A DNA stretch of 37,759 nt from a virus: the IMG/VR virus record IMGVR_UViG_3300046002_010079, positions 1-37,759 of that record. The stretch is one strand, 5' to 3'. Each line of letters begins with the position of its first letter. The first letter of the stretch is position 1. The notes below the pieces were generated by a model that was not told the DNA's origin, ran no database searches, and worked only from the letters and a program-made list of their open reading frames with translations. Position numbers and translations under genes: made by a program. Positions 4,140 to 32,583 of this stretch are shown here, one piece after another.

Positions 4140-4175
4140 CTAAATTCAAACTTTTGCAGTTTTTAAAATAGGACA
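4140..4175 (-). promoter_or_regulatory. Late promoter candidate (a), portal/tail-fibre unit
   Basis: On the minus strand TGTCCTAT (4175-4168) is followed after exactly 20 nt by the -7-like box GAATTTAG (4147-4140). The same arrangement occurs at four other late units. A run of seven T lies directly upstream (TTTTTTTATGTCCTATT), as in copy (b), but no clear terminator stem precedes it here. Confidence 0.6.
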
Positions 4176-4322
4176 TAAAAAAAGGCTGTGATTATGCTAT
4201 GCTATTCCATTAAAAAACGTTTTAATTATTTGATTGTCAAAATTTTAACTTCAAAAATTGAATTTCTCATTTTAAAATCAAACAGAAAAGCACGCCTGTC
4301 CCTATAAATTTTTTCACTTTCC

Positions 4323-4343
4323 ATATCCTAAAAAGTAGGATAT
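4323..4343 (-). terminator. Perfect 8-bp inverted repeat behind the large terminase gene
   Basis: ATATCCTA (4323-4330) and TAGGATAT (4336-4343) pair perfectly around a 5-nt loop, 13 bp past the terminase stop. The stem is AT-rich and no strong U-tract follows directly, so it may be a weak terminator or an mRNA 3' stabiliser. The rest of 4136-4356 carries only promoter (a); I see no gene there. Confidence 0.35.
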
Positions 4344-4356
4344 ATGAAAATGCTAA

Positions 4357-5853
4357 TTAAAGAGTTCTAATAATGCTTTCTGAGAGGAGTGCGTTCGTTC
4401 CTTTAAACAGTTCGTTGTACATCGTTACGATTGGGATGTCGAAGGCATCCGGGAGATGGGTGGCGTGTTGCTGTGGGAATAGTTTGTTACGCTCGTCCTT
4501 CTTGTCTTTCTCTACTGCTCCAGTCAATCCTTCCTTTGCCTCGGAGCGTTCGAGTGCAATGATCAGGTCGGGGTTGTTGTGTTCGTTGATACGTATGACC
4601 GGAAGGCGTGTCTGGTGTTCCTTGAGCATTGCATTGATGAGTAGATACTTATCGAAGTGCGTTGCAGCAGCTCCACGACTCATAAGGTAAACGACCCAGC
4701 CGTGTTGTGATAGCACGTCAATGACCTGCTCGAATAGAGTCTTGCTACTGTTTGGCAATCTATTGTTCCCATCGTGTCCACCATACAAGTATATAGTCTT
4801 CTCCTGGTGCGGTTGATAGTATGGAATGAACTGTTCAATCAATAGGTCATCCAATAGCTTCGGAGACTTAACCCACATAGACTTCAATACTCTATACTCA
4901 TTCTCGTGGGTCTGTGATACTATTAAGCTATTGAACACACCAAAGTCCAAGGACATAATCAATGGTTCGTGTCGCTTCACATCGTTGTCTTGGTTGCAGT
5001 TGAAGTGTTCCGTCTTAGCTACAACACCAATGGTCTCCAGATAGCTGTTATTATAATCCGTATAGTAATGCTTTGCCGGGTTTAATTGTGCATAGAAGCC
5101 GTCTACTATTTCCTTAGGTCTAATGTTTAGAATCTCGGCTTCATATAGCATTTGACTTGGCGACTGGTCCTTCATCTTCTGGAACCAATCAGCTCTAAGG
5201 TGTGGATTGGACTTGGCCGAAGCCTTACTAAACATATACTCAGTTGGTTTTTGTTTCGCCAATAACTCCATATCAGTGAACCATTTGCCCTTCTTGGTGA
5301 TGGGAGTTGATGATACATAGGTTTCAGAGCCGAGCATTGAAGCATTCTTGAACACTTCCTTCTTGGATCTGTTTGTAGTTTTTACGTTGGTGAATAGTTT
5401 CTCTGGGTCCAATAATGCGGACTCGTCACCTACTTCGCCATAAGAGTTCAAGCCACGTCCAGAGTTGGGATTGTCTAATGAAACCAACTGAAAGCAAGCA
5501 CCATTCGGGAAGTGAATTATATTGTTCCATTGGTTTGGTGGTTGGAACGGCATTTCATAACCGTGTTTTTTGCCATTGCGTCCAATGACATAATCAATGT
5601 CCTGGTGCAAATTAAACATTTCCAAACCCTCGATTGTCGATGGTAATGTTCGCGATAATATTTGGCTGTAAGTAGAACCAACGAGCGCGAAGGTTGCCCT
5701 TGGCATTTGCTTAACCATTTTATATATAAAATAAGCAAGAACAGTGGACTTTCCAGCACCACGACCCCATTCTAAGTATTTGTTTTTTTGTGGAGCCATA
5801 ACGGCTGCGAGTTGCGGAATGGTGAGCTCTAAGTTTTGGATTACTTTACTCAT
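4357..5853 (-). CDS. Terminase large subunit, 498 aa
   Basis: This is the ATP-driven DNA-packaging motor and nuclease. The Walker A motif is GRGAGKS at residues 30-36 and the Walker B region is GEVGDESA at about 139-146. The nuclease domain shows acidic residues in IMSLDFG (D303), GGHDGNN (D361) and HLPDAFD (D469/D472). I choose ATG 5853 (MSKVIQNLEL). A longer frame to 5940 adds 29 residues read out of frame through the small subunit gene and looks spurious. The chosen start overlaps the small-subunit stop by 8 nt, typical of a translationally coupled terminase pair. The packaging mode (cos or headful) cannot be read from the sequence. Confidence 0.9.
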   Translation of the reverse strand: MSKVIQNLELTIPQLAAVMAPQKNKYLEWGRGAGKSTVLAYFIYKMVKQMPRATFALVGSTYSQILSRTLPSTIEGLEMFNLHQDIDYVIGRNGKKHGYEMPFQPPNQWNNIIHFPNGACFQLVSLDNPNSGRGLNSYGEVGDESALLDPEKLFTNVKTTNRSKKEVFKNASMLGSETYVSSTPITKKGKWFTDMELLAKQKPTEYMFSKASAKSNPHLRADWFQKMKDQSPSQMLYEAEILNIRPKEIVDGFYAQLNPAKHYYTDYNNSYLETIGVVAKTEHFNCNQDNDVKRHEPLIMSLDFGVFNSLIVSQTHENEYRVLKSMWVKSPKLLDDLLIEQFIPYYQPHQEKTIYLYGGHDGNNRLPNSSKTLFEQVIDVLSQHGWVVYLMSRGAAATHFDKYLLINAMLKEHQTRLPVIRINEHNNPDLIIALERSEAKEGLTGAVEKDKKDERNKLFPQQHATHLPDAFDIPIVTMYNELFKGTNALLSESIIRTL

Positions 5854-6424
5854 TGTCCGGTTCTGGTTTGAGTTCCTCAAAATCAACCTCTGTGACATCA
5901 AGGCTGTTGAAATCGACCACACCTCCAGCAATGAGCTCAATCAATTTTCCTTGCAAGTTCTTATTCATATTGATGTGAATCTCTTTATTCTCGAATTTCT
6001 CTGGATTGAATTCCAAATCTTTAACGTCTAAACCACCATATTTTCCAAGTAAGTCCAATGCTTTTGCTTCGGCTTTTAAGTCTTTGTGTTGTCTGGCTCG
6101 TTTCAATAAGTCCGTGGCCCATTCCATCCACATTGCCTTGAAAACCTTTTCGTCGGTTTTGAAAACATTGGCAAACATATTGCCAGCATTTCGAATGTCG
6201 AGATAGGCTTGCGCCTGACAAACTCCATAATCTCGCACCAAGACATTTGCAATCTTTATTTTGCTGTAGGCTTTCAATTGTAGATTGACTACTAATGTCC
6301 ACCTGATTCTTATTTCTTCTAATTTTTCACTCAATGGATAATGTTCAGGATCTATATAAAAAGCCTGAATTTTATCGAATGTGCTGTCTCCAGTCTTTAT
6401 AAGCATTGCTCTTCCTTTAGCCAT
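5846..6424 (-). CDS. Terminase small subunit, 192 aa
   Basis: This subunit would recognise phage DNA and regulate the large subunit. A helix-turn-helix-like stretch lies at about residues 50-80 (KIKIANVLVRDYGVCQAQAY), followed by a helical region that probably forms the oligomer and an acidic C-terminus. It overlaps the large subunit gene by 8 nt and the upstream gene by 8 nt. The call rests on position, length and the helix-turn-helix; the sequence is not strongly diagnostic on its own. Confidence 0.75.
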   Translation of the reverse strand: MAKGRAMLIKTGDSTFDKIQAFYIDPEHYPLSEKLEEIRIRWTLVVNLQLKAYSKIKIANVLVRDYGVCQAQAYLDIRNAGNMFANVFKTDEKVFKAMWMEWATDLLKRARQHKDLKAEAKALDLLGKYGGLDVKDLEFNPEKFENKEIHINMNKNLQGKLIELIAGGVVDFNSLDVTEVDFEELKPEPDNE

Positions 6425-7139
6425 CTATCAATTTGCTTATAATTAGTAATTCTTCATTTTGTTTCAATAGGTTCTGCTCTTGCTTCATAATCATTCGCTC
6501 GACTTTGTTTTTGTCCACAACATAAACAGCCGTTTGCAACTTTTCGTTGTTTTCCTTTAATCTGGAGTTTAGTTTTGAGATGGAAGCATAAAGCAATTGT
6601 TGCTTCCGTAAAAGTCCGGCAGGAGTCAAACCTTCGTGTTCCGATTGTTTCGATTGTGGAACAATGCGGTGTTCTAAGAAGTAATCAATCTTTTTCCAAC
6701 ACAATCCGTTTTTCTCAAAATTGCGTGAAATTTGGATTTGTAGTTCGAGCGCCTTTTTCTCAGCGTGTTGTGGCAAATCGTTGAGTTGTACTTTTAGGAA
6801 ACAATTTTCTTTAAATAATTGGTTCGCCTCAAGAAGAACCGGTTGCAGTTCTGGTGGCAATTGGTGAAAGAACAACGCCTGTTTATTTTCTACAGCTAAA
6901 ATTGTATCTTCAACCGTTACGGTTTGCGGAGCTTTAAGTTTGACAACTTTGGCAACAGCAGGAACCGGAGTATTCAAGAACTTCAAAAGTTCGTGTTTTA
7001 GTTTTTCGCGGTTGAAAGTGTTTTCCTTTTTTTGGAACATTGACAGTAATTGTCGGTTATGCTTTGGCAAATCGCCATAAATAGCAACTCCAAAAGTATA
7101 ATCACAATCACCGTCAAACCAATCTTGTATTATTTCCAT
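6417..7139 (-). CDS. Coiled-coil protein, first gene of the terminase unit, 240 aa
   Basis: I do not recognise a family. The C-terminal half is strongly helical and coiled-coil-like (LRKQQLLYASISKLNSRLKE, KVERMIMKQEQNLLKQNEEL). The N-terminus has WFDGDCDYTFGVAIYG and the middle a proline/valine-rich linker. It is the first gene behind late promoter (b) and overlaps the small terminase start by 8 nt, which hints at a part in DNA packaging. The ATG lies four bases beyond the -7-like box, so its mRNA may have almost no leader. Confidence 0.65.
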   Translation of the reverse strand: MEIIQDWFDGDCDYTFGVAIYGDLPKHNRQLLSMFQKKENTFNREKLKHELLKFLNTPVPAVAKVVKLKAPQTVTVEDTILAVENKQALFFHQLPPELQPVLLEANQLFKENCFLKVQLNDLPQHAEKKALELQIQISRNFEKNGLCWKKIDYFLEHRIVPQSKQSEHEGLTPAGLLRKQQLLYASISKLNSRLKENNEKLQTAVYVVDKNKVERMIMKQEQNLLKQNEELLIISKLIDG

Positions 7140-7143
7140 ACTG

Positions 7144-7179
7144 CAAATATGGAAAGTGTGAAGCTCTCACAATAGGACA
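7144..7179 (-). promoter_or_regulatory. Late promoter candidate (b), terminase unit
   Basis: TGTCCTAT (7179-7172) is followed after 20 nt by CATATTTG (7151-7144), one mismatch from the Bacteroidota -7 consensus TAnnTTTG. Between the elements lies the dyad TGTGA-n5-TCACA (7157-7171). The upstream side abuts the terminator at 7181-7208. Confidence 0.65.
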
Positions 7180-7180
7180 T

Positions 7181-7776: not shown

Positions 7777-7785
7777 AATTTAATT

Positions 7786-9068: not shown

Positions 9069-9629
9069 CTAAACCATAGGAGTCAATAAGATGGCTCCTT
9101 TGTAAATTGGAGCGGGTCCAAAATTCTTATCACTAAAAGTAATCGTTGCAGAGTTCTTGCCTTCAAGAGTTGCTTCGATGTTGTGCTCTACTTTTACAGT
9201 TGCCTGTAAACGTGCAGAACCCAACTGGCGAACGTTTCCTGTTCCAAACTCTTCTAACAATACTACCAATTTTTGATTTTTTACCCAACGGCAAAAACCA
9301 AGGACTTCTGCAGTAGATCCTGCAATCTCAACAACCAATTCGTTTTGGAATAAAGAACGTCCGTTCTCACCAATTTGAGTTGATTTGATAGTTCCTGTTT
9401 CGGTAATGGTTTCAATTTGCCAGAATCTCTTCGTTGATTTAAAAACGTGAGCTGTAGCAATCTCTGCCAATTCTGCGAAAGTGTCCGCAACCAATGCAAC
9501 GTTTGCATCACAAATCTTTAAAGGATCGTTGATAGTTGTAAAGTCACTATGCAAGGCATAATAAACTTTATTGACTAATCCTGATACTGGTTCGCAGCTT
9601 TCGCCGCCAATGTCTTCTAATACTACCAT
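9069..9629 (-). CDS. Structural protein, tail-tube candidate, 186 aa
   Basis: The protein is beta-rich with alternating hydrophobic strands (FQNELVVEIAGSTAEVLGFC, KLVVLLEEFGTG, ARLQATVKVEHNIEATLEG, NSATITFSDKNF), a pattern like that of phage tail-tube proteins. It is the last gene of the capsid unit, one base after the stop of the preceding small gene, and ends at a strong terminator. No tail-tube gene was found next to the tape measure, which makes this a candidate, but a decoration or other head protein is also possible. Confidence 0.45.
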   Translation of the reverse strand: MVVLEDIGGESCEPVSGLVNKVYYALHSDFTTINDPLKICDANVALVADTFAELAEIATAHVFKSTKRFWQIETITETGTIKSTQIGENGRSLFQNELVVEIAGSTAEVLGFCRWVKNQKLVVLLEEFGTGNVRQLGSARLQATVKVEHNIEATLEGKNSATITFSDKNFGPAPIYKGAILLTPMV

Positions 9630-11400: not shown

Positions 11401-12267
11401 ATTTGTATTTTTATTGTTTGAAATTTTAGAAGCGTTCGAAAGCATTACCACTTTATCGAATGCTTTTTGGATGGTTCCCAATTCGTCAACTAATCCTAAA
11501 GAAAGACTTTCGCCTGGTGCGTAAATTGCACCTTCAAAAACCGAGGAATCAATTCCGGGATGGTATAAATTAACATCGTCAACAAATTTGTCACGTGCCG
11601 GATCTAATATGTTTTTTATAAGTAAGGCATCGGAGCCTTCTTTCATTGCGCGGTGTTCTTCATTCTTTCTGGAAGAGCCTGTAGCATAAATGTCTTTTAT
11701 AATTCCACCTTCGGCTTCAAGTATGCCGTCAAGGTTTACATAAGTAAGCATCGTTCCAATGGATCCAATAAGGTCCGCATTAGGATTCACCACAATATGG
11801 TCGCAAGCGGCAGCCACATAATAAGCAGCCGAAGCCATAACACCGTCCGTATAAGCAACAATAGGTTTGGAATAATTATGAAGGTATTCGGCAAATTCTG
11901 CCAATCCTGAAACTTGGCCACCCGGACAGTCAATGTCCAGAACCACACCCACAACATTGTCGTTAGCTTCCCATTCTTTCAGTAAACGAGTCATCGAGCG
12001 TGTTCCTGCTGGACCGCACATTTGATCGTATTTGAATAATGGAGTTTTTATCGATAAAACATTGATATACTGCGAAGCGGAATTAATCTCTGGAACATCG
12101 GTGAAGTCTTCACCATCCATTTCCATAAAAACAACAGGAAGTTTTGAAGCTACTTCTTTGATTTCATTTCCTTTTATCAATGATAATAATTGAGGCATCA
12201 TTGATGAAGCTCCCGAAGAAGTAATCATCCAATGTGAGTTCAAAAGGCTGTAAGTGTTGTTTTTCAT
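10945..12267 (-). CDS. Prohead protease (S49/SppA-type) fused to a scaffold-like domain, 440 aa
   Basis: Residues 40-280 form an S49/ClpP-fold serine peptidase: VVLDIDCPGGQVSGLAEF, then DGVMASAAYY with catalytic serine 146, and SSRKNEEHR with the likely general-base lysine 201. Residues from about 290 are a coiled-coil-rich, glutamate/threonine/alanine-rich tail (LENRLAELEAS, LQSALAQTNEDLANAQTQL) like a scaffolding protein. I choose ATG 12267 (MKNNTYSLL); the frame also offers TTG two codons upstream. The late promoter (c) lies upstream at 12303-12338. The protease would cut scaffold, capsid arms and itself during head maturation. Confidence 0.85.
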   Translation of the reverse strand: MKNNTYSLLNSHWMITSSGASSMMPQLLSLIKGNEIKEVASKLPVVFMEMDGEDFTDVPEINSASQYINVLSIKTPLFKYDQMCGPAGTRSMTRLLKEWEANDNVVGVVLDIDCPGGQVSGLAEFAEYLHNYSKPIVAYTDGVMASAAYYVAAACDHIVVNPNADLIGSIGTMLTYVNLDGILEAEGGIIKDIYATGSSRKNEEHRAMKEGSDALLIKNILDPARDKFVDDVNLYHPGIDSSVFEGAIYAPGESLSLGLVDELGTIQKAFDKVVMLSNASKISNNKNTNMNTKQLPNVQAVLGLDAPLASTEENGSYLNFEQLDTLENRLAELEASNTSNDIELQSALAQTNEDLANAQTQLTATQETVVGIETSIDAMMTSAGLTVEGTLAEKTIALNAKVLEMGSKDGASHTNTIIDVENTTKGNVIGGIDVTAALNN

Positions 12268-12302
12268 TGACAAAAAAAATTTGTACTGTAATTTCTACAA
12301 TA

Positions 12303-12338
12303 CAAATTTTAGGTATTTGTCAAACTTAAAATAGGACA
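12303..12338 (-). promoter_or_regulatory. Late promoter candidate (c), head unit
   Basis: TGTCCTAT (12338-12331) is followed after 20 nt by AAAATTTG (12310-12303). The -7-like box is one arm of a 10-bp inverted repeat (12276-12285 with 12301-12310, 15-nt spacer), which may be an operator. The gene start lies 35 nt beyond the box. Confidence 0.65.
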
Positions 12339-12882: not shown

Positions 12883-13347
12883 CTACTGATTTACTATTGT
12901 AGTCAATTTTTTTACTTTTATTTGCTCCCCAGAATACCTTTGATATTTCCTATACATCGATTCGAGCTTCATTTCATTTTCTGATATATCATAAATCAGA
13001 AAGAAGAGTTTGATGCTTTTCATTGCGTTGGTCTTTCCTTTGAGCAGTTCCAAATCAATAAAAGAGTAGAAATCCTCAAAAAATAACTTTTCGAGACAGT
13101 TCCCCAGGAACCGAGCTTTGTTTTTATCGATGTTGAATCCTTTTTTGTTGAAATAAAAGGATGGAATCGTTAATTCGTACTTTTCGAACTCTAAAATCTT
13201 CCGTTCTGGAGCTTCCACTTTGTTGTTGATCAGTTCCAGCAGCAACAAACCTAAAAATGTTTTTTTCGTGACCGTGTGAACGGAGCCATATTTCTTAATC
13301 AAGTACTTTTTAACGTGAATTTTGACTGGAATAGAAATCGAAATCAT
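12883..13347 (-). CDS. Hypothetical protein beside the iterated repeats, 154 aa
   Basis: I choose ATG 13347 (MISISIPVKIHVKKYLIKKY). The frame extends to 13461, but a -7 box at 13369-13376 would place the transcription start about 18 nt before 13347, and the extension is a low-complexity phenylalanine/leucine run. The protein is basic and helical (TVTKKTFLGLLLLELINNKV, GNCLEKLFFEDFYSFIDLEL) with no recognised motif. It is the only gene directly downstream of the GGGAACT repeat cluster, so a repeat-binding replication or regulatory role is possible, but there is no motif to support that. Confidence 0.65.
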   Translation of the reverse strand: MISISIPVKIHVKKYLIKKYGSVHTVTKKTFLGLLLLELINNKVEAPERKILEFEKYELTIPSFYFNKKGFNIDKNKARFLGNCLEKLFFEDFYSFIDLELLKGKTNAMKSIKLFFLIYDISENEMKLESMYRKYQRYSGEQIKVKKLTTIVNQ

Positions 13348-13823: not shown

Positions 13824-14627
13824 CTAAATTGGTAAATTTAATTTTGAAAGCGAAGCTGTGGAAACGTGACAATATATTTCTGTAGTTTTTACATTGGAGT
13901 GTCCAAGGTGTTTTTGTATGTATCTTAGATCTGTTCCGGCTTCGAGCAAAGCGGTGGCATTTGAATGTCGAAGTAAGTGCATGTGGTATTCTTTGCCAAT
14001 GTATTTTTTTACCAATTGGTTACAACTCGTTTCGCTGTATTGATTTGTGAATTGGCCGTTGAATAAATACTCCTTTGGTCGATACTCAAGGAAATAGATT
14101 CGAAGCAACTCCAGAACCTTCTGGCTTAACGGAACAATCCGGTCTTTGTTTCCTTTTGAGTTCCGAATAAAAATAAGCATCCGTTTGCTGTCGATATCCG
14201 AGATTAAAAGATTAATGACTTCCGAAACTCTCATTCCTGTAGAATAAGTCATCGTGAGCAACGCCTTGTGTTTTGTGTTGGTAATTTTATCCAATTGATT
14301 AAGCAGAAATTCTTTCTCAATGATTTTTGGGAGTTTCCTTTCGCTTCTTGGATATTCAATATACTTGAACTTCATTGGTTGTTTGATCACATATTTATAA
14401 AACAACTTCAAAGCCGAAAGCGAATGACACATCGAGTTCCTGGTCTTAAATTGAAGCAGCCACGTTTTAATGGCTGCTTCATTTATTTTTGAAGGTTCTG
14501 TGAACAATTGATTGTGACCTTTCAAAAACTGCTCCACCTGATAAACATAGTTTTTAATGGTGTTTTCTGCATAGTTTTTGAGTTCCAACTCTTTCCGATA
14601 CAAAATAAGGTACTTAGGAATTTCCAT
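13824..14627 (-). CDS. Tyrosine recombinase, XerC/D-like, 267 aa
   Basis: Domains are an N-terminal core-binding (SAM-like) domain at residues 1-85 and a catalytic domain from about 105. Catalytic residues read R133 (STGMRVSEV), K158 (NSKGNKDR), H217-x-x-R220 (HLLRHS), H243 (LGHSNVKTT) and Y252 (EIYCHV). Unlike the recombinase at 24538-25743 it lacks an N-terminal arm-binding domain, so it resembles Xer recombinases or those of simple elements. It is the last gene of the unit with the Mom-like and methyltransferase genes and has its own terminator. Possible roles are resolution of genome dimers, integration into a dif-like site, or movement of the flanking gene block. Confidence 0.85.
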   Translation of the reverse strand: MEIPKYLILYRKELELKNYAENTIKNYVYQVEQFLKGHNQLFTEPSKINEAAIKTWLLQFKTRNSMCHSLSALKLFYKYVIKQPMKFKYIEYPRSERKLPKIIEKEFLLNQLDKITNTKHKALLTMTYSTGMRVSEVINLLISDIDSKRMLIFIRNSKGNKDRIVPLSQKVLELLRIYFLEYRPKEYLFNGQFTNQYSETSCNQLVKKYIGKEYHMHLLRHSNATALLEAGTDLRYIQKHLGHSNVKTTEIYCHVSTASLSKLNLPI

Positions 14628-14678: not shown

Positions 14679-15358
14679 GTTGTGTGCAATTGCTACGAAC
14701 CTGCATCTAATGAAATTTTCGGGTAAGGCTCGACTTTGTATTTCAATTTTCCTAAAAGCTCTTTTTTTCTTTTAGGCTTGCAGTTGAAGTAAACGTATCT
14801 GTGCTTTCGTGGTCTGTCAACTAAGCTAAATTTATCACCATATTTTTCCCTTATTTCAACTGCCGTGTATTTGTCTGCAATGGTTTGGCAATGCTTATCA
14901 TTACCTTCAATAGTCCAGTTTGTTCTTTTTGCCGATAACCCTGTATAAATCCAATTAGTAGCCTGATAAACTATGCCTATATGCCCTTGTTGAATTTCTG
15001 CATAGCTTACAATTATTTCCTTATCAACTTTACCAATTGTATTTCCAATCAAAAAACTTTCAGTGTTCTTTGGAGTTCCGTCCTTTACCCAAAGCCTTGT
15101 AAGCTCAATCACATTATCCTTTTCATCCAAACCACAAATCCCACCCCTCAAAGGTGCTGATGATGGCGTTCCGTAAATAACCACACCAATAATGTTTTTT
15201 GATTGCTTGCAGAATAAACCAAAGGCAAAAGAACAAGGTGCTTTGCGATGTAGGTAATGATTTTTAACAACCAAATCCATTGCAGTTTTATAGTCAATTC
15301 GTTCAATAAAAAAAAGAGCTTTTGGGCTTTCCGTTGATAAACCGCAACTGCACACAAC
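14679..15358. repeat. 15-bp inverted repeats bracketing the Mom-like gene
   Basis: GTTGTGTGCAATTGC (14679-14693) and GCAACTGCACACAAC (15344-15358) are inverted copies with one mismatch; some flanking bases also match. The left copy overlaps the stop region and the right copy lies inside the first ~30 codons of the gene. This looks like the edge of a transferred cassette. Confidence 0.5.
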
Positions 15359-15427
15359 ACTGCATTGCTGCAATGGCGGCTGATGTGGTATATTCAACTG
15401 TGGTGTTTCAAATAAACTTTTCTGCAT
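14693..15427 (-). CDS. Mom-like DNA-modification protein, 244 aa
   Basis: The middle of the protein matches what I know of the Mom family (GNAT fold), which in phage Mu modifies adenine in DNA to a carbamoylmethyl derivative and shields it from restriction. Key stretches are LVVKNHYLHRKAPCSFAFGL, NIIGVVIYGTPSSA, ELTRLWVKDGTPKNTESFLI and SYAEIQQGHIGIVYQATNWI. The basic C-terminus (CKPKRKKELLGKLKYK) would suit DNA binding. The first ~45 residues are not typical; part is encoded by an inverted repeat, so a start nearer residue 50 (MDLVVKN) is possible. It follows the cytosine methyltransferase gene with a 57-bp gap; together they form a modification module. Confidence 0.75.
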   Translation of the reverse strand: MQKSLFETPQLNIPHQPPLQQCSVVCSCGLSTESPKALFFIERIDYKTAMDLVVKNHYLHRKAPCSFAFGLFCKQSKNIIGVVIYGTPSSAPLRGGICGLDEKDNVIELTRLWVKDGTPKNTESFLIGNTIGKVDKEIIVSYAEIQQGHIGIVYQATNWIYTGLSAKRTNWTIEGNDKHCQTIADKYTAVEIREKYGDKFSLVDRPRKHRYVYFNCKPKRKKELLGKLKYKVEPYPKISLDAGS

Positions 15428-15484: not shown

Positions 15485-16813
15485 CTATTTCGGTTGACGT
15501 AAATCAAGACGTTTTATTATCTCAACTAAACAACTTACTACAATTGAATTTCCAGCTTGTTTGTATGCTTGTGAATCGCTTACATTCCACTTGAAGTTTT
15601 CGTTAAAATCCATTAATCTGAAACATTCAAACGGTGTTAATCTTCTTATTCTTTGCATATTTGATACTTTAGGTTCTTGATTTCCGCCACCCATTGTATG
15701 TATCGTTGGTGAAATTCCATTTTTATCATAAACTCGTCCTGATTGTTCGTGTGTTTTATCCCATTTACCACCAGTCAGTTGATATTCTACTATTGGAGCA
15801 GGAATCACAACTACATTATCTTTCTGAACCGTAGTTAATGCGTTTGAAGTTCCGTTTTCGTTTATTTCAAGCATTTGTTCCGTTGGTAATCCTGAAACTC
15901 TACTTAATGGATTTTGTGGATTACGACCTAGTATTGCTCCAATAAAAATATCTTCCGCACCCATTTTATTATATCTTGCAGTAATGCAACCACTATAATC
16001 ATCTTCTTCTGTAAATGGATATTTTCCTGAACTACTTCTTTTTTCTCTATGCTTATCAATCCAAGTAAGCATTGTATCACTCAAAAAATACTTTTCATCA
16101 ACTTCATTCTCTAAAACATCTTTCAATCTTTTTACTAAATGAAATGGCTTTGGAAAACTAAAAGTATTGTCTGCATCATCACGAATCCCAATTATAAAAA
16201 TCCGTTCTCTATTTTGCGGAACTCCGTAATGTTTCGCATTCATAACTTGGTAATAAACGTGATACGGTGTTGCGTTTTCGTGAGGAAATATTACAGGATT
16301 TCCGTTTACAGATTTTCCACCTAAATAATCAATCCATCTTTGAAACGTTTTTCCGTTATCGTCAGAAAGCAATCCTTTTACATTTTCAAAAATGAAATAA
16401 CGAGGATTGTTTTTTACAATAAACTCGTGTGAATTATAAAACAAAACTCCATTTTTAGAATCTTCACCTTTGCGTTTTCCTGCTAAACTGAAACTTTGGC
16501 AAGGCGGAGAAGTCATATAAATATCTAAACTTTCTTTTGGTATTTCACGTTCATAAACATTCTCCGGATAATAATCAGGTTCTCCAAAATTGTAGATGTA
16601 AGTTTGTCGAGCGTATTTGTCCATATCACAAGCAAACTTCTTATTTTGCTTAATACCTAATCTTTCAAGTGCTTGGTCGAATGCTCCAACTCCAGAAAAG
16701 TCTGAACCAGTAGTTACAATTACGTTTTCTGATTTAATAGAGAAACAGCCAGTAACAGCCATTTGGCAAGATTGGGTTTCGGGCTTATCTGAATTTTGGT
16801 CTTGTGCTTTCAT
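15485..16813 (-). CDS. dcm: DNA (cytosine-5) methyltransferase, 442 aa
   Basis: All main motifs of the C5 family are present in order: motif I GSDFSGVGAF (36-45), motif IV TSPPCQSFSL with nucleophile C105, motif VI FENVKGLLS (E143), motif VIII GVPQNRERIFIIG (197-209), a target-recognition region from about 215 to 390, and motif X QAYKQAGNSIVV near residue 417. It should transfer a methyl group from S-adenosylmethionine to cytosine C5 in a short DNA target; the target sequence cannot be read. No restriction endonuclease is next to it, so an orphan protective enzyme is most likely. The gene sits behind the early-operon terminator. A GC-rich patch before it (about 16850-16885) differs from the rest of the window and suggests transfer. 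Confidence 0.92.
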   Translation of the reverse strand: MKAQDQNSDKPETQSCQMAVTGCFSIKSENVIVTTGSDFSGVGAFDQALERLGIKQNKKFACDMDKYARQTYIYNFGEPDYYPENVYEREIPKESLDIYMTSPPCQSFSLAGKRKGEDSKNGVLFYNSHEFIVKNNPRYFIFENVKGLLSDDNGKTFQRWIDYLGGKSVNGNPVIFPHENATPYHVYYQVMNAKHYGVPQNRERIFIIGIRDDADNTFSFPKPFHLVKRLKDVLENEVDEKYFLSDTMLTWIDKHREKRSSSGKYPFTEEDDYSGCITARYNKMGAEDIFIGAILGRNPQNPLSRVSGLPTEQMLEINENGTSNALTTVQKDNVVVIPAPIVEYQLTGGKWDKTHEQSGRVYDKNGISPTIHTMGGGNQEPKVSNMQRIRRLTPFECFRLMDFNENFKWNVSDSQAYKQAGNSIVVSCLVEIIKRLDLRQPK

Positions 16814-23100: not shown

Positions 23101-23208
23101 TTATAAATTTATTTTGATTAGTAAAAAGACGATTCTGCCTAGTATTATCCAGCAACAAGCGATTGCCAAGAATAAAATTTTGTCGATGTTTATTTTTTTA
23201 AATAGCAT
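23101..23208 (-). CDS. Tiny membrane protein, 35 aa
   Basis: ATG 23208 overlaps the stop of the LuxR-type gene by one base (TAATG) and the frame ends 2 bp before the next start at 23098, so it exactly fills the gap. It begins MLFKKINIDKI, then one hydrophobic segment (LFLAIACCWIILGRIVFLLI) and a short basic end. Perfect packing and coupled start make it likely to be real. Many phages carry such small membrane proteins of unknown job. Confidence 0.6.
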   Translation of the reverse strand: MLFKKINIDKILFLAIACCWIILGRIVFLLIKINL

Positions 23209-23468
23209 TATTGGATAATTTTTTGGTGAAACGCTTTTGAAATTAAACCTGATTTGGAGTGAACATCGAACTTTTCAAATAAGTTTTTTTTGTGAGTGTT
23301 CAGTGTGCTTTCGGTAATTCCGAGATGGTCGGCAATTTGCTTGTCACATAGATCAGAAGCAAATAAGGAAAGGATTTCGAGTTCCCTTGAAGTAGGGCGA
23401 GTTATTTCTGGCCATATTTGGTTGAAATAACTTTTTGTTGTAGATTTGTCGTGCATAACATTAATCAT
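23208..23468 (-). CDS. Small LuxR/GerE-type transcription regulator, 86 aa
   Basis: Residues 25-83 form a GerE helix-turn-helix: PTSRELEILSLFASDLCDKQ, IADHLGITESTLNTHKKNLF, EKFDVHSKSGLISKAF. There is no receiver or ligand-binding domain. It is the second gene of the early operon. Stand-alone GerE proteins activate promoters; this one is a reasonable candidate for the activator of the TGTCCTAT late promoters, but nothing in the sequence proves that. An alternative start is ATG 23456. Confidence 0.75.
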   Translation of the reverse strand: MINVMHDKSTTKSYFNQIWPEITRPTSRELEILSLFASDLCDKQIADHLGITESTLNTHKKNLFEKFDVHSKSGLISKAFHQKIIQ

Positions 23469-24537: not shown

Positions 24538-25743
24538 ATGGATTCCTCAAAAAATGCCTTTCACTCCCCAATAAACGCCCCAGTGAATTTTAGTGGGGAG
24601 TTGACAGCGAAAATTGTGATCAAAGATGATTACGTTCGCGCCGATGGAACTTGTGCATTGCACTTGCAGGTTTTTATTATGGGTAAAAGAAAAAAACTAC
24701 CTATATATATAAGTGTGGCTCCTATTGATTTTGACAAAAAGAAACAACGCGTAAAAGTAAAAGCACACTTTGCCAAGGATTATAATTTGATTATTGAAAA
24801 AGCATTGGCCGACATCAATAAAATTGAAATCAGTTACCGACTTGCTGGCGAAGTTCTGGATATTGACAAGCTTGTTAACGAATACCAAAACCCAAGTTCT
24901 AGAATTGATTTTATTAAGTTCTGGGAACTTGAAATGGTAAACCAAAAAGAAACGCGTGACATTGCCACTTATAAACAGCAAATGTCTTCACTCCGGAAGG
25001 TTAAAAAATACAAAGAGTCGATTTTGTTTTATGAAATTACGCCGCTATTTTTTGAGAAAATGATTCGGTATTTTGAGAAGGTAAAAAAGAATGAGCCAAA
25101 TACCATTCAAACCGTTTCGAAAAACTTTAAAAAATACTTGCACATTGCTAACAACAAAGGAATTGTCACTCCGCTAAACTTCAAAGATATAAAGACGACT
25201 CGATGCGTTAGTAATAGAACGTTTCTTGATGCTGTTGAAATAAAACGCCTAAATCAATATTATACTTCGGAATTCATAAATGAGAGTTTAAAAGCAATCC
25301 TTGGGCGTTTTCTTTTTTCGTGTTTTACAGGATTGCGGATTTCTGACATTAAGGCAATTACTAAGGAAAATATTGTGGGTGATATATTAATTTTCTTTTC
25401 GCAAAAGACTGGAAAATTACAACGCATTCAATTGAATCAATCGGCTTTGTCATTTGTGGGTGACGATTATATTTTCTCTGGTGATTACTCAGAAGCTCAT
25501 ATTAATCGAGAATTGAAAGTAATTGCAAAAACTTGCGGCATTAAAAAACACATCACTTTTCACGTGGCCCGACATTCATTTGCCACAAACTTCCTGATTT
25601 GCGGTGGACGTGTCGAAATTCTTCAAAAATTATTGGGTCACGGAAACATAAGGGAAACAATGGACTATGTTCACATTGTGGAAAGCATCGTGGAACAGCA
25701 AATTAATAATTTGGATGATATTTTAAAAAGTGATGCTCAATAA
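24538..25743 (+). CDS. int: Tyrosine integrase, 401 aa
   Basis: Domains are an N-terminal arm-DNA-binding region (residues 20-105), a SAM-like core-binding domain (about 120-215) and the catalytic domain. Catalytic residues read R267 (TGLRISDIK), a lysine in the SQKTGKLQR hairpin, H342-x-x-R345 (HVARHS), H368 (LGHGNIRET) and Y377 (DYVHIV). This is the standard architecture of Bacteroidota phage and mobile-element integrases. It would recombine attP with a host attB for lysogeny. It follows the repressor on the same strand, and converges with the tail gene ending at 25723 with a 21-bp overlap of coding ends. Confidence 0.92.
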   Translation: MDSSKNAFHSPINAPVNFSGELTAKIVIKDDYVRADGTCALHLQVFIMGKRKKLPIYISVAPIDFDKKKQRVKVKAHFAKDYNLIIEKALADINKIEISYRLAGEVLDIDKLVNEYQNPSSRIDFIKFWELEMVNQKETRDIATYKQQMSSLRKVKKYKESILFYEITPLFFEKMIRYFEKVKKNEPNTIQTVSKNFKKYLHIANNKGIVTPLNFKDIKTTRCVSNRTFLDAVEIKRLNQYYTSEFINESLKAILGRFLFSCFTGLRISDIKAITKENIVGDILIFFSQKTGKLQRIQLNQSALSFVGDDYIFSGDYSEAHINRELKVIAKTCGIKKHITFHVARHSFATNFLICGGRVEILQKLLGHGNIRETMDYVHIVESIVEQQINNLDDILKSDAQ

Positions 25744-27621
25744 ACTAAATTTCACATCAAAATTATTTTGGGTAGTTTCTGAATATTGCAAACTACTAAT
25801 CATATACTCTTGATTATCAATAAAAATTCGATTTAACTTTATAATTTTATTTAATTCAATTTCAGTGAATGGTCCAGACATTTCTAATATAGAACTGTTT
25901 AAACGAAACTTTAACCATTTTCTCCAATAGACTTCATAAACCCCACCAACTCCATCTAGATTAAGATTTTGACCTAAATAATTTGAAGATGTATTTGGCT
26001 TATTGAATGTGTCATAAATCATTAAACCAATGCCTTCTTTTGAGTCTAATTCTTCAGATAAAGTTGCCGTGGCAGTTGTAGGAACTAATTTAAACTTCGA
26101 GTCTAATTTTTCTAAAAAATCAGATTTTTGAGTGGTATAAATCACAGCTCCTTCAGTTGTGATCCATAAAGCTGCATCTTCATCATTGGCGTATTTTAAA
26201 AGAAATGAATTATAAGGTGTTTGCTCATAACTTGAAGCAATTAGCGACTTGTTTAAAATTGTTTTTTCCCCATTTATAATTGAGTCGGCATTGAAATTAA
26301 GCGTTAATTTTTTAGTAAAATCATCGGGCGTTATTTCTAAATTGAAAAAATTTTGTAACGCATTCAAATAAGTAGCAAATGTCCAGTCCGGAGTATATCT
26401 TGATAAATTGATAGTTGGATGCATCTGGTTGTATTCATTTGGATACGTTACTTTTACACCTAAAGAATACGTTGGAAGACTATCTACATTTGTAAAATAT
26501 CCAATTCGTATGTTCTGACCTACTTCGGCAGCAGTGACTTCAATTTTAATGGTTCCTTTATAAACATTTGCAGCTGTTGTTGAATAATGAGTATAAGCAA
26601 TGAATGATTGATCACCAAGAGCTATATAAAAATATTTTCTATCAACATAAGGATCATCGAATGTAAAAGTAGGTTCTGTAATTTCATAATTAAAATAGTA
26701 AACACCAGCTACACTGGCTACATAATAAGTCAATGAACTATAATAATAATATATTAATTCTCCAAGATCATCGTAAGCGCCACCAATAGTTGGAGCATTT
26801 AGTGTCACTGTCCCTGTAGTTTTTAAAGGAAAACTTTTTGTTAAATTATTTTTGTTATTTAAAATAAGTAGTCTTTTTATAAATTCCGAAGTGGTAAAAG
26901 AGCCACTCATTTTCCACCCAATGGTCTCTAAAGCATAAAATAACGGCGTTAATAAAAACAATTGTGGAGCTGGAATATTCTTGTTTAAAACAGTGCAAAC
27001 ATTTGAAACAACTTCATAAGTATTCTCAACAAATTCTGTTAATCCAAATTTGTTGATTTCGTTTTCATAACTATGCCAAGGATCATCAACGGCTAAATCA
27101 ACACCAAATTTATTAAAGTGTTTCATTGTAGGAAACTGCCATTTTACAGCAGGAAAAATATTGTTGATAAAACCCAAAGGATAAGTTGCCCAATTATCTG
27201 ATCCCGTAACCGGAATGTCCGTTGTTTCTAAATAAGGAACTGGAGCTGTCTCTCCTGGTATTACCGAAACCGTTGGCATAAAATCGGCAATCTTAGTGTT
27301 CATTATCGAAAGTAAATCAGAAGCATATTTCAAATTACACTTTCGAAACCCTGATAAATAAGACAACACTTGCAGTTCTCCCAGATATTTTTTCCCACCT
27401 TCAAAAACAGTGACTTCAATGGTTTTTATTTTGTTTATCGAAGATAACTCACGGGTTCCAAGGGCTTGTTTGGCTTTTTTATTTTCGATAATCAAAAAAG
27501 GAAAGCTCGAATGGGCCACGCTAAAATCACGGCTCAACGCATTGTTCTCTTTTTTTATCGAAAGGGTTTCTTTAACAAAATCAAGTTCGATGTCTTTTGC
27601 AACTATCTTAATTAAACTCAT
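25723..27621 (-). CDS. Tail-tip protein, Tal/hub candidate, 632 aa
   Basis: The protein starts MSLIKIVAKDIELDFVKETL and contains a beta-rich first third (KKYLGELQVLSYLSGFRKCN) and a long middle with many tyrosines and phenylalanines, typical of virion proteins. By position (second gene after the tape measure, overlapping the preceding gene by 4 nt) it fits a tail-associated hub or baseplate component. No lysin or protease motif is visible. It is the last gene of the unit from late promoter (d); no terminator is evident before the convergent integrase. Confidence 0.5.
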   Translation of the reverse strand: MSLIKIVAKDIELDFVKETLSIKKENNALSRDFSVAHSSFPFLIIENKKAKQALGTRELSSINKIKTIEVTVFEGGKKYLGELQVLSYLSGFRKCNLKYASDLLSIMNTKIADFMPTVSVIPGETAPVPYLETTDIPVTGSDNWATYPLGFINNIFPAVKWQFPTMKHFNKFGVDLAVDDPWHSYENEINKFGLTEFVENTYEVVSNVCTVLNKNIPAPQLFLLTPLFYALETIGWKMSGSFTTSEFIKRLLILNNKNNLTKSFPLKTTGTVTLNAPTIGGAYDDLGELIYYYYSSLTYYVASVAGVYYFNYEITEPTFTFDDPYVDRKYFYIALGDQSFIAYTHYSTTAANVYKGTIKIEVTAAEVGQNIRIGYFTNVDSLPTYSLGVKVTYPNEYNQMHPTINLSRYTPDWTFATYLNALQNFFNLEITPDDFTKKLTLNFNADSIINGEKTILNKSLIASSYEQTPYNSFLLKYANDEDAALWITTEGAVIYTTQKSDFLEKLDSKFKLVPTTATATLSEELDSKEGIGLMIYDTFNKPNTSSNYLGQNLNLDGVGGVYEVYWRKWLKFRLNSSILEMSGPFTEIELNKIIKLNRIFIDNQEYMISSLQYSETTQNNFDVKFSLLSITF

Positions 27622-28673
27622 ACGTTTGGAACTTTGCCTTTAGTGTTGAAGGTGAAGGTTAAATCTTGTGCGAAACTGTGTTTTTTGTCACGGAAAGCCA
27701 ATTCTTTTTTCGTGGAAGTCTGAATTTTCTTCCATTGGTTATTGACTTTGAAAACCACGTCCGGAGAATTGATTATTTGATTGACAATCGCACGTTCATC
27801 GGCTAATAAATAGCCTGTGTTGATGGTGTAAGTTGCCTCTTCGTCAATTTCGAAAATCACATTGGTTCCGTCTGCTTCTTGGTAATCGTTTATTTTCAAA
27901 CTGTTCGAAATTTCGAGTTCGCCATCAAAATAAGCGGGAATAAAATAGCCAAAGTTATTCTTAAAATACAATTCTTTAACAGGGAAATCTGGCAACCGAA
28001 GCAATCTGTATCGCAAAGTTGTCGTGGTCGCGCCACAAGTGATGGTTGTCTCGAAGTAGATGGTATTGGCTGCCAAAGTAACTCCTGATAAATTGAATTC
28101 GTATAAAAATATTTTGTTTCCAGTAAAGGAAGTAATGGTTTGTGAGTTGATAATCGCTCCAAAGTTGTTTTTTAGTACGACAACAACCGCCTCGGCAGTT
28201 GCCTTGACATAGAATGGAATCCTGATAATTCCGTTTATTGGAATTTGTAAAACAGCAGGCGAAATTCCCAACGGCTGTACCTTTATGGTATCATCAAAAT
28301 ACACTGGATTTTGATTGTACATAAAATAAAAAATAGGCAAATTAATAGTTTCTACAACGGCATCCGTGGCAATAAGTCGCTCTTCGATGGTGATACTTAT
28401 TTTCTTTTTGAGTGCGGTTTGTTCCGTGATGCCGTTTGTGGCAAATGGAGCGAAGGTACTTTCGAAATATGCGTTGTATAATTTAACTAAATCTTTTACC
28501 GTGCTGTAAGCATCGAAACGGGACCAGCCTTGAGTATCAAACAAAACATCATTTACATAAATCAAAGCGCGATAATAATGCCCAGCTCCATTTGTAGACA
28601 GGATTTCTATCTCGGTATTATTGGCGTCGAGAAAAACCCGATTTAAAGCTGGTGAAGATACAATTGTCATCAT
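27618..28673 (-). CDS. Distal tail protein candidate, 351 aa
   Basis: First gene behind late promoter (d), starting with two consecutive ATG codons (MMTIVSSPALNRVFLD). The sequence is beta-rich throughout (NRVFLDANNTEIEILSTNG, YRALIYVNDVLFDTQGW, RLIATDAVVETINLPIFYFM) and ends in a small beta domain (HSFAQDLTFTFNTKGK). Position right after the tape measure unit and before the large hub-like protein fits a Dit-type distal tail protein. This is a positional call. Confidence 0.5.
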   Translation of the reverse strand: MMTIVSSPALNRVFLDANNTEIEILSTNGAGHYYRALIYVNDVLFDTQGWSRFDAYSTVKDLVKLYNAYFESTFAPFATNGITEQTALKKKISITIEERLIATDAVVETINLPIFYFMYNQNPVYFDDTIKVQPLGISPAVLQIPINGIIRIPFYVKATAEAVVVVLKNNFGAIINSQTITSFTGNKIFLYEFNLSGVTLAANTIYFETTITCGATTTTLRYRLLRLPDFPVKELYFKNNFGYFIPAYFDGELEISNSLKINDYQEADGTNVIFEIDEEATYTINTGYLLADERAIVNQIINSPDVVFKVNNQWKKIQTSTKKELAFRDKKHSFAQDLTFTFNTKGKVPNV

Positions 28674-28691
28674 TTTCGTTTGATTATGATG

Positions 28692-28727
28692 CTAATTTAA
28701 AGGAGTTTTTTTAGTGACAATAGGACA
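28692..28727 (-). promoter_or_regulatory. Late promoter candidate (d), tail-tip unit
   Basis: TGTCCTAT (28727-28720) is followed after 20 nt by TAAATTAG (28699-28692). The upstream edge is shared with the U-tract of the terminator at 28728-28755, so the preceding unit ends exactly where this one starts. Confidence 0.65.
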
Positions 28728-29105: not shown

Positions 29106-32100
29106 TTATTCATTTAAAATCCCTCCTTGTGCGGAAACATTGCGCTCATCGTTTAAAGTTTGTATGCTCTCCGCTTCGGCATAACCAATTAATGCTGTTG
29201 CTTTTATTCCTCTCGCTAAAATTGCGTTAAGATTTGCAATCGCTCCATATAACATTTCATTATCTAAAGAATATCCTTGACTTCCAACTGGAACTGCACC
29301 AGGAGAAGTTCCTCCACCTGTTGCAAATTTACGAGTGTTGCCAACACGTTCTTGCTCTAACCACGCAATTGTGTTTGCGTATCGTGGCGATTGTGTCATT
29401 GTTTCCGGAATGACATATTCGTTTTTGTGTACGATTCCTGTCATTGGTCCATATTCATCAAAACCAAGATGTGCGGTGGTTCCTGTATCACCACCATAAA
29501 AGAACTTAGGAGTTTTAGGTGCTTTAGAACTTAAAATCTTTGAAATAGCAGCAACAGTGCTTATTCCAGAAGCGGCAATTAAGGCATAAGTAGAAAACCC
29601 GAAATCGACTTTTGGAGTTGTTGCAAAAATGTTTGTGATCGCTAAGGCCCCGTTGATTCCTGCTTGTACAACTGCCAAAGCTTTTGACTGCCCAAACATC
29701 TCGCCAAGAGCTCCAGCAACCTGTCCCATAGCCTGCAAGTTCTGACCTAAATGAGCCGCTCGGTTCATTGTATCCATATCGGACTGCTTTATTTTTGCAG
29801 CAGCTACAAAACGATTGTATTTATCTTCTGTGATAACTTTATCATCAAGCAACTTTTTATATCCTGCAAGTTCTACCGTATAATCTTGCTGGCGTTTTAG
29901 ATTGTTGGCTTCCTCTTTCGTGGTTGCCTCGGCAAGTGCGAGTTCATTGTCGGCAAGGAGTTGTTCGGCATTTACAACTTTTTGTTCTTCTTCATAGGTT
30001 TTTTTAAGTCCAGTTGTCGTTGCTTGAAATTCTAAATCAAGAGCCTGTTCCGCTATCAAATATTCTAAATCAATGGTTGATTTCAACGCTGCCAAAGTCT
30101 CGGCATTTATTTTATCGGAATCATAATCAGATTGTGCTGCTTCAACTTTACTCAATCGTTCGTTCGCCAGTGCATTTTCCTTTAAAAAGCGAATGTCATC
30201 GAGTCGCTTTGTTTCCTCAGCAATTATCTCCGGAGTCAAGCTTTTTGTCGAGTCTAGTTTTGTGCGTTCGTTTGCTATAAATGCGGCAAGTTCTGCTTTG
30301 GCAAGTCCTTCTTTGGCTTTTGCGAGTGCAATGATTTTGTCTTGCTCAATTTTATCGGCTTTGTCTTGCTCGGATTGTTTTTTATCGGCAGCGGTTTTGC
30401 GTGCTTCGGCTTCTTTTTGTCGTGCCGCATCCCGAATTGATTTTTGTTTGGCAAGTTCTTCTTCTGTGGTTTTTGTGTCTGCATTGTCAGGATTTGTTGT
30501 GGCGGTTCCAGCTTGTCCGGAAGCTTTAACAACAATGTCTTTTGATTTCAATCCTTCAAGTTTCTTTTGAATGAAATCGACATCCAAACCAATAGCTTTC
30601 AACAATGGAGCAACGTTTGAAATCACACCTTGAATGGCATTGATAATGTTGTTTTTGATATTTCCAAAAATGTTTCCAACGGTGGATCCAAGATTTATAA
30701 AATAATTTTTAACCAAATCTATTGCTCCCAGAAAGTCGCCTGTAATAATGGCTTTTACAAAATTGAAACCAAATGCAATGTTATCCGTAACGATTTTTAC
30801 AACTCCGCCAATGACGTCAAAGGCATTGGAAACTCCTAATTTTAAAACTATCCACGCATTAACAAGAGCGACACCAACCAAATCAATAAGAGGTTGAATG
30901 TTGTTTTTAAATTCTGATAAATAAGTAAGGGCAGAGGCAAAGGCATCGGTTACTTTTGCTTTTATTCCATCCCAAATACTTCCAAAACCTTCTATCTCGA
31001 ATAATTCTGCTTGTGATTTGTTCAGTTTTTCGTTTGCTTCCAATAATTCCAATTGCGCTTTTGTACTTGCTGAAATTTCTTTTTGAGCAGAAACACCAAC
31101 AGCTTCCAAAACTTTTAAAGCTCCACCAGCATCTTCACCAGCACCACGGAAAATGTCTGCTGTCAATTGTGCTTGTTGTTGTTGTGTCAATCCTGATTCC
31201 TTGGCTTTGGCTGCAATTCTTTCCAGTGCTGTTTTTGTGGTAATTTCGCCAGTTGTAACTCTTGCTAAAATATCATCCGTAAAACTACCACCAAAAGCAT
31301 TCGTCAGGGCATCTCGAACGGCTTTGGTTTGTTCCCTTAAAGACAAATCGGCTTCTTTGAGCGCATCTGGTAATTTATCAGAATAGATTCCTAAGTCAAA
31401 ACCTTTATTAATAATGTCGGCGAATTCCGTGGCCGAATATCCAGCTTTTGAAAAGAACTCGTCATATTCTCCAAGGCTGTCCAGAAATTCACCGTTTTGC
31501 GCTCCGCCGTTTGCCAGTCCTTTTGCAATCACGTCATTTGCCTCTGACATTGAGATTCCAAAGGTTTTAGAGAGTGAATTTGCTTTACTGGCAATGTCGT
31601 TGAACTCTTTTGAGAAAGTTTCTGCGGTGGCTTCGATTTCAGAGCGTACTTGTGACATTTCCTCTGCAGAAACATTGAACCCTCTTAATGTTTCGTTTGC
31701 TTTTTCTAAGTTTTGATTGAAGTCAAAGATTGCTTTTGCACCTGCAGCAAATCCAGCCAAAACTGCTATTGCAGCACCTATTGGAGTGGCAATAAATGCA
31801 AGGGATGTTTTGACCAATCCGGTTAATTCTGCTTTGATTCCTGAAAGTCCTTCTTTGGCGGTTTGCAAATCACCTGAAATAAGTCCGGTGTAAAGTTTTG
31901 ACATACTTCCGGAAGCATCTTTTGTTGCTTTATCCGTTGCATAAATTTCGTCCTTGAAAGCGGATTGTTTAGTTTGAAGCTCTGAAAGGTTTCCTTTTAA
32001 TTTTTTTAAATCAGAATCATAAGTGGCGGAGTTCTTATTGAGGTTTTTCATCTCGTTATTTGTACGAGTGATTTCAGAAGTGATGCCACGCATCGAATTG

Positions 32101-32162
32101 ACAACTGCCTTATCGTTGATATAAATTGATAATTCTCTTGGGATTTCTTTTCTTGCTGCCAT
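29106..32162 (-). CDS. Tape measure protein, 1018 aa
   Basis: The longest tail gene has the features of a tape measure. There is an N-terminal coiled coil (ITRTNNEMKNLNKNSATYDS), hydrophobic glycine/alanine-rich segments (FIATPIGAAIAVLAGFAAGA at about 125-145; VVQAGINGALAITNIF and ISTVAAISKILSS near 850-890), and a very long charged helix at about 560-800 (KEAEARKTAADKKQSEQDKA). It sets tail length and enters the host envelope at ejection. At roughly 1.5 angstrom per residue the tail would be near 150 nm, which supports a siphovirus form. The start overlaps the preceding stop by one base. Confidence 0.9.
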   Translation of the reverse strand: MAARKEIPRELSIYINDKAVVNSMRGITSEITRTNNEMKNLNKNSATYDSDLKKLKGNLSELQTKQSAFKDEIYATDKATKDASGSMSKLYTGLISGDLQTAKEGLSGIKAELTGLVKTSLAFIATPIGAAIAVLAGFAAGAKAIFDFNQNLEKANETLRGFNVSAEEMSQVRSEIEATAETFSKEFNDIASKANSLSKTFGISMSEANDVIAKGLANGGAQNGEFLDSLGEYDEFFSKAGYSATEFADIINKGFDLGIYSDKLPDALKEADLSLREQTKAVRDALTNAFGGSFTDDILARVTTGEITTKTALERIAAKAKESGLTQQQQAQLTADIFRGAGEDAGGALKVLEAVGVSAQKEISASTKAQLELLEANEKLNKSQAELFEIEGFGSIWDGIKAKVTDAFASALTYLSEFKNNIQPLIDLVGVALVNAWIVLKLGVSNAFDVIGGVVKIVTDNIAFGFNFVKAIITGDFLGAIDLVKNYFINLGSTVGNIFGNIKNNIINAIQGVISNVAPLLKAIGLDVDFIQKKLEGLKSKDIVVKASGQAGTATTNPDNADTKTTEEELAKQKSIRDAARQKEAEARKTAADKKQSEQDKADKIEQDKIIALAKAKEGLAKAELAAFIANERTKLDSTKSLTPEIIAEETKRLDDIRFLKENALANERLSKVEAAQSDYDSDKINAETLAALKSTIDLEYLIAEQALDLEFQATTTGLKKTYEEEQKVVNAEQLLADNELALAEATTKEEANNLKRQQDYTVELAGYKKLLDDKVITEDKYNRFVAAAKIKQSDMDTMNRAAHLGQNLQAMGQVAGALGEMFGQSKALAVVQAGINGALAITNIFATTPKVDFGFSTYALIAASGISTVAAISKILSSKAPKTPKFFYGGDTGTTAHLGFDEYGPMTGIVHKNEYVIPETMTQSPRYANTIAWLEQERVGNTRKFATGGGTSPGAVPVGSQGYSLDNEMLYGAIANLNAILARGIKATALIGYAEAESIQTLNDERNVSAQGGILNE

Positions 32163-32536
32163 TATTTGAAATTTATTTTTGATGTTACTTCTGTCAACCT
32201 GATTTCTGATATTTCATCGGCAAGGGTTTCGAGAATTTTAGAAGATTCTATTGCTTTTGCAATTACACTTGTGGCCTGTAGTCGCATATTGATTCCGTTT
32301 GATTTTGTCCCTTCAAAACCATATTGTTGTTTGAAAATGTAGTGGGGAGCGCGAATAGTGATTCTTTGTAAACGGTTGTCACGAAATACGGCTCTGGAAC
32401 CTGCTTGTTTTAACGCTTCGCCTGTTTGGGATTCTGTAGTTTGTGAGATTGCACCACGAATGGCATTTCGCATTGCAGTTGTAGATTTTCCTGCAAGATT
32501 TTTTTCTAATTGGTATAAATCGACTGCTCCTATCAT
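32162..32536 (-). CDS. Tail-completion/HK97-gp10-like candidate, 124 aa
   Basis: I choose ATG 32536 (MIGAVDLYQLEKNLAGKST) over the frame start at 32605: late promoter (e) lies at 32548-32583, so a transcript from it begins only about 8 nt before 32536, and the site has a good A-rich leader. The protein is basic with an amphipathic N-terminal helix and strands around RITIRAPHYIFKQQYGFEGT, a pattern like gp10/neck proteins that close the tail. It is coupled to the tape measure start. Confidence 0.55.
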   Translation of the reverse strand: MIGAVDLYQLEKNLAGKSTTAMRNAIRGAISQTTESQTGEALKQAGSRAVFRDNRLQRITIRAPHYIFKQQYGFEGTKSNGINMRLQATSVIAKAIESSKILETLADEISEIRLTEVTSKINFK

Positions 32537-32547
32537 CTTTTTTTTAG

Positions 32548-32583
32548 TAAAAATAAGTTTGATTTTATGGTTATGATAGGACA
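32548..32583 (-). promoter_or_regulatory. Late promoter candidate (e), tape-measure unit
   Basis: TGTCCTAT (32583-32576) is followed after 20 nt by TATTTTTA (32555-32548). The upstream element is half of GGACAG-n7-CTGTCC on the minus strand. It lies between the stop of the gene at 32587 and the chosen start at 32536, which supports that start. Confidence 0.65.

Follow-up and report, generated by a model that had tools for sequence, protein, structure and literature searches.

A 37.8-kb viral record with genes for head, tail, terminase, lysis, integrase, and primase contains five copies of the octamer TGTCCTAT ahead of its virion genes. This arrangement raises the questions of whether the five sites are late promoters and which protein would read them. 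No description of late-gene control or late promoters in Bacteroidota phages was found in the literature searched, and the literature matches listed for the octamer were all unrelated. A megablast search of the window (the whole stretch of DNA analyzed, 37,759 nucleotides) directly against phages gave no match.

Octamer and box in the window

Counted on both strands of the window, TGTCCTAT occurs five times against 0.76 expected, a number reached in none of 100 shuffles of the window. All copies are on the minus strand, and their positions (4175, 7179, 12338, 28727, and 32583) are those given in the initial annotation, which had also held that many additional copies inside genes would speak against a promoter function. 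Beyond these five, genes contain no additional copies; therefore, this objection does not apply. In all five sites, a box of the form nAnnTT follows at a spacing of exactly 20 nt with the A and TT fixed, again as first described, and TGTCCTAT ranks first among all window octamers with such a box at this spacing. The pattern TAnnTTTG by itself is not enriched in the window (59 against 52.7 expected). The features are listed below.

4140–4175, minus strand: late promoter 1; TGTCCTAT at 4168–4175, box GAATTTAG at 4140–4147, predicted +1 at 4135; same site in relatives
3791–4135, minus strand: p3791, 114 aa, first gene of the portal unit (p3791-portal-1471), with the A of its ATG at the predicted +1 (predicted leaderless)
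7144–7179, minus strand: late promoter 2; TGTCCTAT at 7172–7179, box CATATTTG at 7144–7151, predicted +1 at 7139; also seen in relatives
6417–7139, minus strand: p6417, which opens the terminase unit (p6417-p5846-TerL), with the A of its ATG at the predicted +1 (predicted leaderless)
12303–12338, minus strand: late promoter 3; TGTCCTAT at 12331–12338, box AAAATTTG at 12303–12310, predicted +1 at 12298; unit of the head protease and then head genes, ATG at 12267, predicted leader of 31 nt
28692–28727, minus strand: late promoter 4; TGTCCTAT at 28720–28727, box TAAATTAG at 28692–28699, predicted +1 at 28687; unit p27618-p25723, ATG at 28673, predicted leader of 14 nt
32548–32583, minus strand: late promoter 5; TGTCCTAT at 32576–32583, box TATTTTTA at 32548–32555, predicted +1 at 32543; unit p32162-tape measure, ATG at 32536, predicted leader of 7 nt

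All five sites precede virion-gene units, as had been claimed, while some of the first genes named at the time need correction. The portal gene is preceded by p3791, TerL by p6417 and p5846, and the tape measure gene by p32162, a 124-aa protein. The designation "tail tip" for 27618–28673 was not confirmed, with no PHROG match. Neither p32162 (start at 32536) nor the head protease (start at 12267) begins at its longest-ORF start; for p32162, the longest-ORF start at 32605 is therefore wrong. Late promoter 2 comes directly after a terminator-like hairpin and T run. The five sites thus share a motif at a fixed distance ahead of virion-gene units, as is characteristic of activator-dependent phage late promoters.

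A small inverted repeat is found at the 5' end of the predicted protease/capsid transcript. It is weaker in the window (12268–12302) than in three related loci, where it has 8-bp stems with z of about −3.4 to −3.7 (L004:5521–5551, L131:10993–11023, and L139:10761–10791). The stem sequences differ between groups.

Conservation in related phages and prophages

The window phage is Helgolandviridae-like: its TerL shares 53% identity with that of Polaribacter phage Leef_1 (Helgolandviridae; PMC8776804), and homologous genes, the portal gene among them, stand in a related order. A TerL search retrieved 21 related loci in viral contigs. The same element was present in all the loci found in this way except Leef_1, mostly in two to six copies per locus and oriented with the genes. 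A scan of genomes located relatives in Flavobacterium, Tenacibaculum, Polaribacter, Galbibacter, Mesonia, Zunongwangia, Aequorivita, and Thermobacterium. The spaced motif, whose presence ahead of late genes in relatives the initial annotation had put forward as a check, thus recurs throughout related Flavobacteriaceae phages and prophages.

The spacing is strict. In 22 family records, nAnnTT follows 66 of 78 distinct TGTCCTAT sites at spacing 20, and no boxes were found at spacings 16–19 and 22–24; spacing 21 shares columns with 20. In a wider set of 213 distinct sites, which come from related phages and are not independent, spacing 20 fits 104 of 117 TGTCCTAT sites and 59 of 96 sites of a second octamer, TGTCCTTT. 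The pattern read backwards gave no matches in 14 phage records, against about 50 for the true pattern. Outside prophages, the chromosomes of 12 host genomes contain the pattern at no more than the control rate. Many copies in relatives stand directly after terminator-like T runs.

The two motif types differ at position 7, which is A in TGTCCTAT and T in TGTCCTTT; the latter is used by Leef_1, also at spacing 20, and by others. One locus is mixed (L062, with TGTCCTTT and TGTCCTTC), and another has TGTCCTAC (L121). Phages of Polaribacter differ in their motif, with TGTCCTAT in L060 and TGTCCTTT in Leef_1; therefore, the choice of motif appears to lie with the phage and not with its host. In the loci L063–L067, near 9300–9350, two TGTCCTTT promoters are arranged back to back on opposite strands, about 10 bp apart, upstream of two divergent late units.

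Predicted start sites and leaderless mRNAs

Primary-sigma promoters of Bacteroidota consist of TTTG and TAnnTTTG elements (PMC6847099, PMC9723704). In Flavobacterium johnsoniae, the −7 element occupies −12 to −5, and transcription begins 4–5 nt downstream of it (PMC6847099). With this geometry, TGTCCTAT in the phage sites would cover about −40 to −33, and the fifth base downstream of the box would be +1. The comparative evidence supports the assignment of the motif class as promoters with TGTCCTAT at about this position, and it supports the proposal of the initial annotation that the octamer is used in place of the −33 element. No TTTG-like −33 element was found in the window sites; TGTCCTAT occupies its place in all five.

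The proposed phage promoters resemble the host type in the position of the box, in the A, TT, and (T)G of the −7 element, and in a predicted start 4–5 nt downstream. They differ in that TGTCCT(A/T)T, at spacing 20, replaces the −33 element and in the lack of conservation at −12, where host promoters almost always have a T. Compared with TAnnTTTG, the phage boxes conserve the A, the TT, and a following G/A, and the first T is found in only 38 of 104 sites. Lacking this T, such a −7 box would be expected to have little activity of its own.

Among the 104 TGTCCTAT sites, the predicted +1 is an A in 76 and the first base of an ATG in 45; among the 59 TGTCCTTT sites, the corresponding numbers are 36 and 16. 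At adjoining offsets, an ATG begins in only 0–2. Because 61 of the 163 promoters place the ATG at the predicted +1, the corresponding mRNAs should be leaderless. We infer that transcription starts at this base and that part of the virion mRNAs lack a leader. Leaderless mRNAs account for only 5.5% of the mapped mRNAs of F. psychrophilum (PMC9723704).

p12883 as the candidate activator

An unannotated gene about 1 kb ahead of the first late promoter is the best candidate for the late activator.

12883–13347, minus strand: p12883, 154 aa
13369–13376, minus strand: canonical, host-type −7 box TAAATTTG upstream of p12883, with no TGTCCTAT nearby

The gene thus has its own TAnnTTTG-type box. The initial annotation had assigned exact TAnnTTTG boxes to early and moron genes in general; this applies to p23482 (−78), p12883 (−29), and a ligase-like gene (−32), and not to eight others checked.

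A homologue of p12883 is present in all 12 prophage-bearing host genomes, in Leef_1, where it is annotated only as a hypothetical protein, and in the viral records that hold the region. Leef_1 also shares TerL, the GerE homologue discussed below, and the genome order with the window phage. Among 39 loci retrieved with p12883 alone, 36 have the motif; in the other three, the high-GC loci L126, L129, and L140, the homologue is present and no TGTCC promoter motif was found. The p12883 tree agrees with the motif types. However, the TerL tree does so too; therefore, co-inheritance alone could explain the link, and the specificity is not proven. Residue 13 of p12883 is mostly Lys or Arg in TGTCCTAT phages and Tyr in TGTCCTTT phages, with L060 and L062 as exceptions, and this pattern is also clustered by descent.

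No match to p12883 was found in Pfam, PHROG, or NCBIfam. An AlphaFold2 model from 36 sequences (pLDDT 85, pTM 0.80) has a strand-helix-helix unit twice (beta-alpha-alpha), followed by C-terminal helices. This order is that of the tandem ribbon-helix-helix proteins TraY and DndE, in which strand-helix-helix occurs twice in one chain before C-terminal helices; F TraY binds DNA as a monomer (PMC12117103, PMC10853773). However, no sequence similarity to these proteins was found, and the proposed role of p12883 is in phage late transcription. The structural match is also weak: a Foldseek search of the PDB gave no significant match (ribbon-helix-helix proteins at E of about 3–4), and the best relevant PDB matches were chains of the F-plasmid relaxosome (Z 3–4), taken as TraY from their length. 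We propose a tandem ribbon-helix-helix-like fold for p12883. Such a single-chain protein would suit an asymmetric 8-bp site.

Another protein, p12343 (154 aa), is encoded before late promoter 3. It is conserved, but it was rejected as a candidate, having no DNA-binding signature and only a weak counterpart in Leef_1.

Proposed mechanism and alternatives

We assign a probability of about 0.6 to the reading that the five sites are late promoters at which host polymerase with its primary sigma factor is assisted by p12883, which would replace the −33 contact. Soon after infection or induction, p12883 would be expressed by the host RNA polymerase from an ordinary TAnnTTTG promoter. The protein may then bind TGTCCTAT, an asymmetric site covering about −40 to −33, the place of the weak −33 element in normal promoters, and recruit polymerase with the primary sigma factor to the degenerate −7 box. 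The virion-gene units would be switched on together. Where the ATG is 4 nt after the box, the mRNA would begin at the start codon. What the sequences show is the motif with its spacing, orientation, place ahead of virion genes, conservation, and ATG offset, together with the distribution of p12883; the start sites, the DNA-binding role of p12883, its fold, and the order of events are inferred. Of the proteins considered, p12883 is the most likely late activator.

The same promoters might be served by a different activator.

23208–23468, minus strand: LuxR/GerE-type HTH protein of 86 aa, encoded by the second gene in the leftward early region

Its relatives have an N-terminal domain of about 110 residues with a CSNNCxC motif, which this protein lacks. 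A clear GerE HTH domain (Pfam PF00196, 7e-15) and an early gene position speak for it, and the LuxR annotation in Leef_1 might point to an activator of this type. Several members of the LuxR/GerE class bind CCTA-containing half-sites. Every full-length TGTCCTAT phage in the first set examined has a homologue, as do 11 of the 12 prophage hosts. The protein was first favored as the sole candidate because tblastn did not find it in Leef_1; an HMM then detected it there. However, it is contradicted by its own tree, in which a grouping of the motif types as clades is rejected (AU p 2e-5), and by its absence from motif-bearing genomes: it was not detected in FPSV-F7, in the 39- and 41-kb records G029 and G038, or in the 19.5 kb preceding p12883 in the Tenacibaculum MAR_2009_124 prophage. 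Moreover, its recognition helices differ strongly while TGTCC is fixed, and they are near-identical in L060 and Leef_1 although the motifs differ; the window copy is truncated. We regard this protein as an unlikely activator.

The initial annotation had left open whether an activator or an alternative sigma factor uses the octamer. A sigma factor of host or phage origin could read TGTCCTAT as its upstream element, and some ECF sigma families use TGTC-like −35 elements. However, the evidence favors an activator acting together with the primary sigma factor, because the box keeps the A, TT, and G/A of the primary-sigma TAnnTTTG pattern and because the motif differs between phages of a single host genus and shows no enrichment in host chromosomes. 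In the window, no sigma-factor family was matched except via the GerE HTH, and TGTCC is not among the F. psychrophilum sigma motifs as described (PMC9723704). An alternative sigma factor is thus improbable.

The motif could also be an operator at which a repressor or silencer of the phage holds the late promoters inactive during lysogeny. Its overlap with the −33 region and its presence in prophages would suit such a role. However, it is found only at late units and not in the early control region, repression would not need an exact 20-nt spacing, and loss of the T at −12 is what would be expected of an activator-dependent promoter; we consider an operator quite improbable. A chance octamer or RNA-level signal has nothing specific in its favor beyond the many box-like strings of AT-rich sequence, and the enrichment, strand, spacing, conservation over dozens of phages, and many copies immediately after terminator-like T runs make it hardly credible.

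Activator-dependent phage promoters of late or middle genes are known from T4 MotA, P2 Ogr/P4 Delta, and Mu C, in which a phage protein near or upstream of −35 recruits polymerase to a shared promoter class. The p12883 system would be of this known kind. It differs in its protein family, the Bacteroidota −7 box, the single asymmetric octamer at −40 to −33, and the common leaderless starts; the regulator family, the promoter code, and these starts would be new.

Duneviridae and a possible wider family

Members of Duneviridae were taken as controls and were expected to lack p12883. However, they encode a remote homologue immediately ahead of a late unit (hmmsearch 8e-9 and 4e-6); in a profile comparison, it matched p12883 at 1.5e-6 over the C-terminal half. 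The octamer TGTCACAA occurs five times in laban6-1; all copies lie on the strand that codes for the late genes, and a box-like sequence is found at 20 nt. In 6H and FPSV-F7, TGTCTTAA occurs four and five times, respectively, with a box at about 19 nt. Because these counts are unremarkable and the octamers were found by eye, the use of TGTCACAA or TGTCTTAA with a remote p12883 homologue in these more distant phages is suggestive only.

Taken together with the Helgolandviridae-like phages, this may point to an undescribed family of late activators, possibly tandem ribbon-helix-helix proteins, that read lineage-specific octamers built on an invariant TGTC (followed by CTAT, CTTT, ACAA, or TTAA, with 19–20 nt to the −7 box) and give many leaderless virion mRNAs. 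We put this forward tentatively, at somewhat less than even odds. If true, it would provide naturally paired activators and promoters across Flavobacteriaceae phages.

The activator candidate and the predicted leaderless starts go beyond the initial annotation. The analysis gives a precise promoter code with a named, testable activator gene. The natural variants with A or T at position 7 can be used for a specificity test. The predicted leaderless virion mRNAs would occur in a phylum in which leaderless transcripts are rare and Shine-Dalgarno sites are absent. The promoter code would allow late units to be called in unannotated phages of this Flavobacteriaceae-infecting group.

Other features of the record

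The record ends within repeated tail-gene sequence (2–1435 and 35743–37749); therefore, the contig may be broken at the repeat. A Mom-like DNA modification gene adjoins a DNA methyltransferase gene (14693–15427 and 15485–16813 in the window). Comparison with the relatives did not recover this pair there and gave only a weak match to the methyltransferase. The window phage has two integrase genes, at 13824–14627 and 24538–25743.
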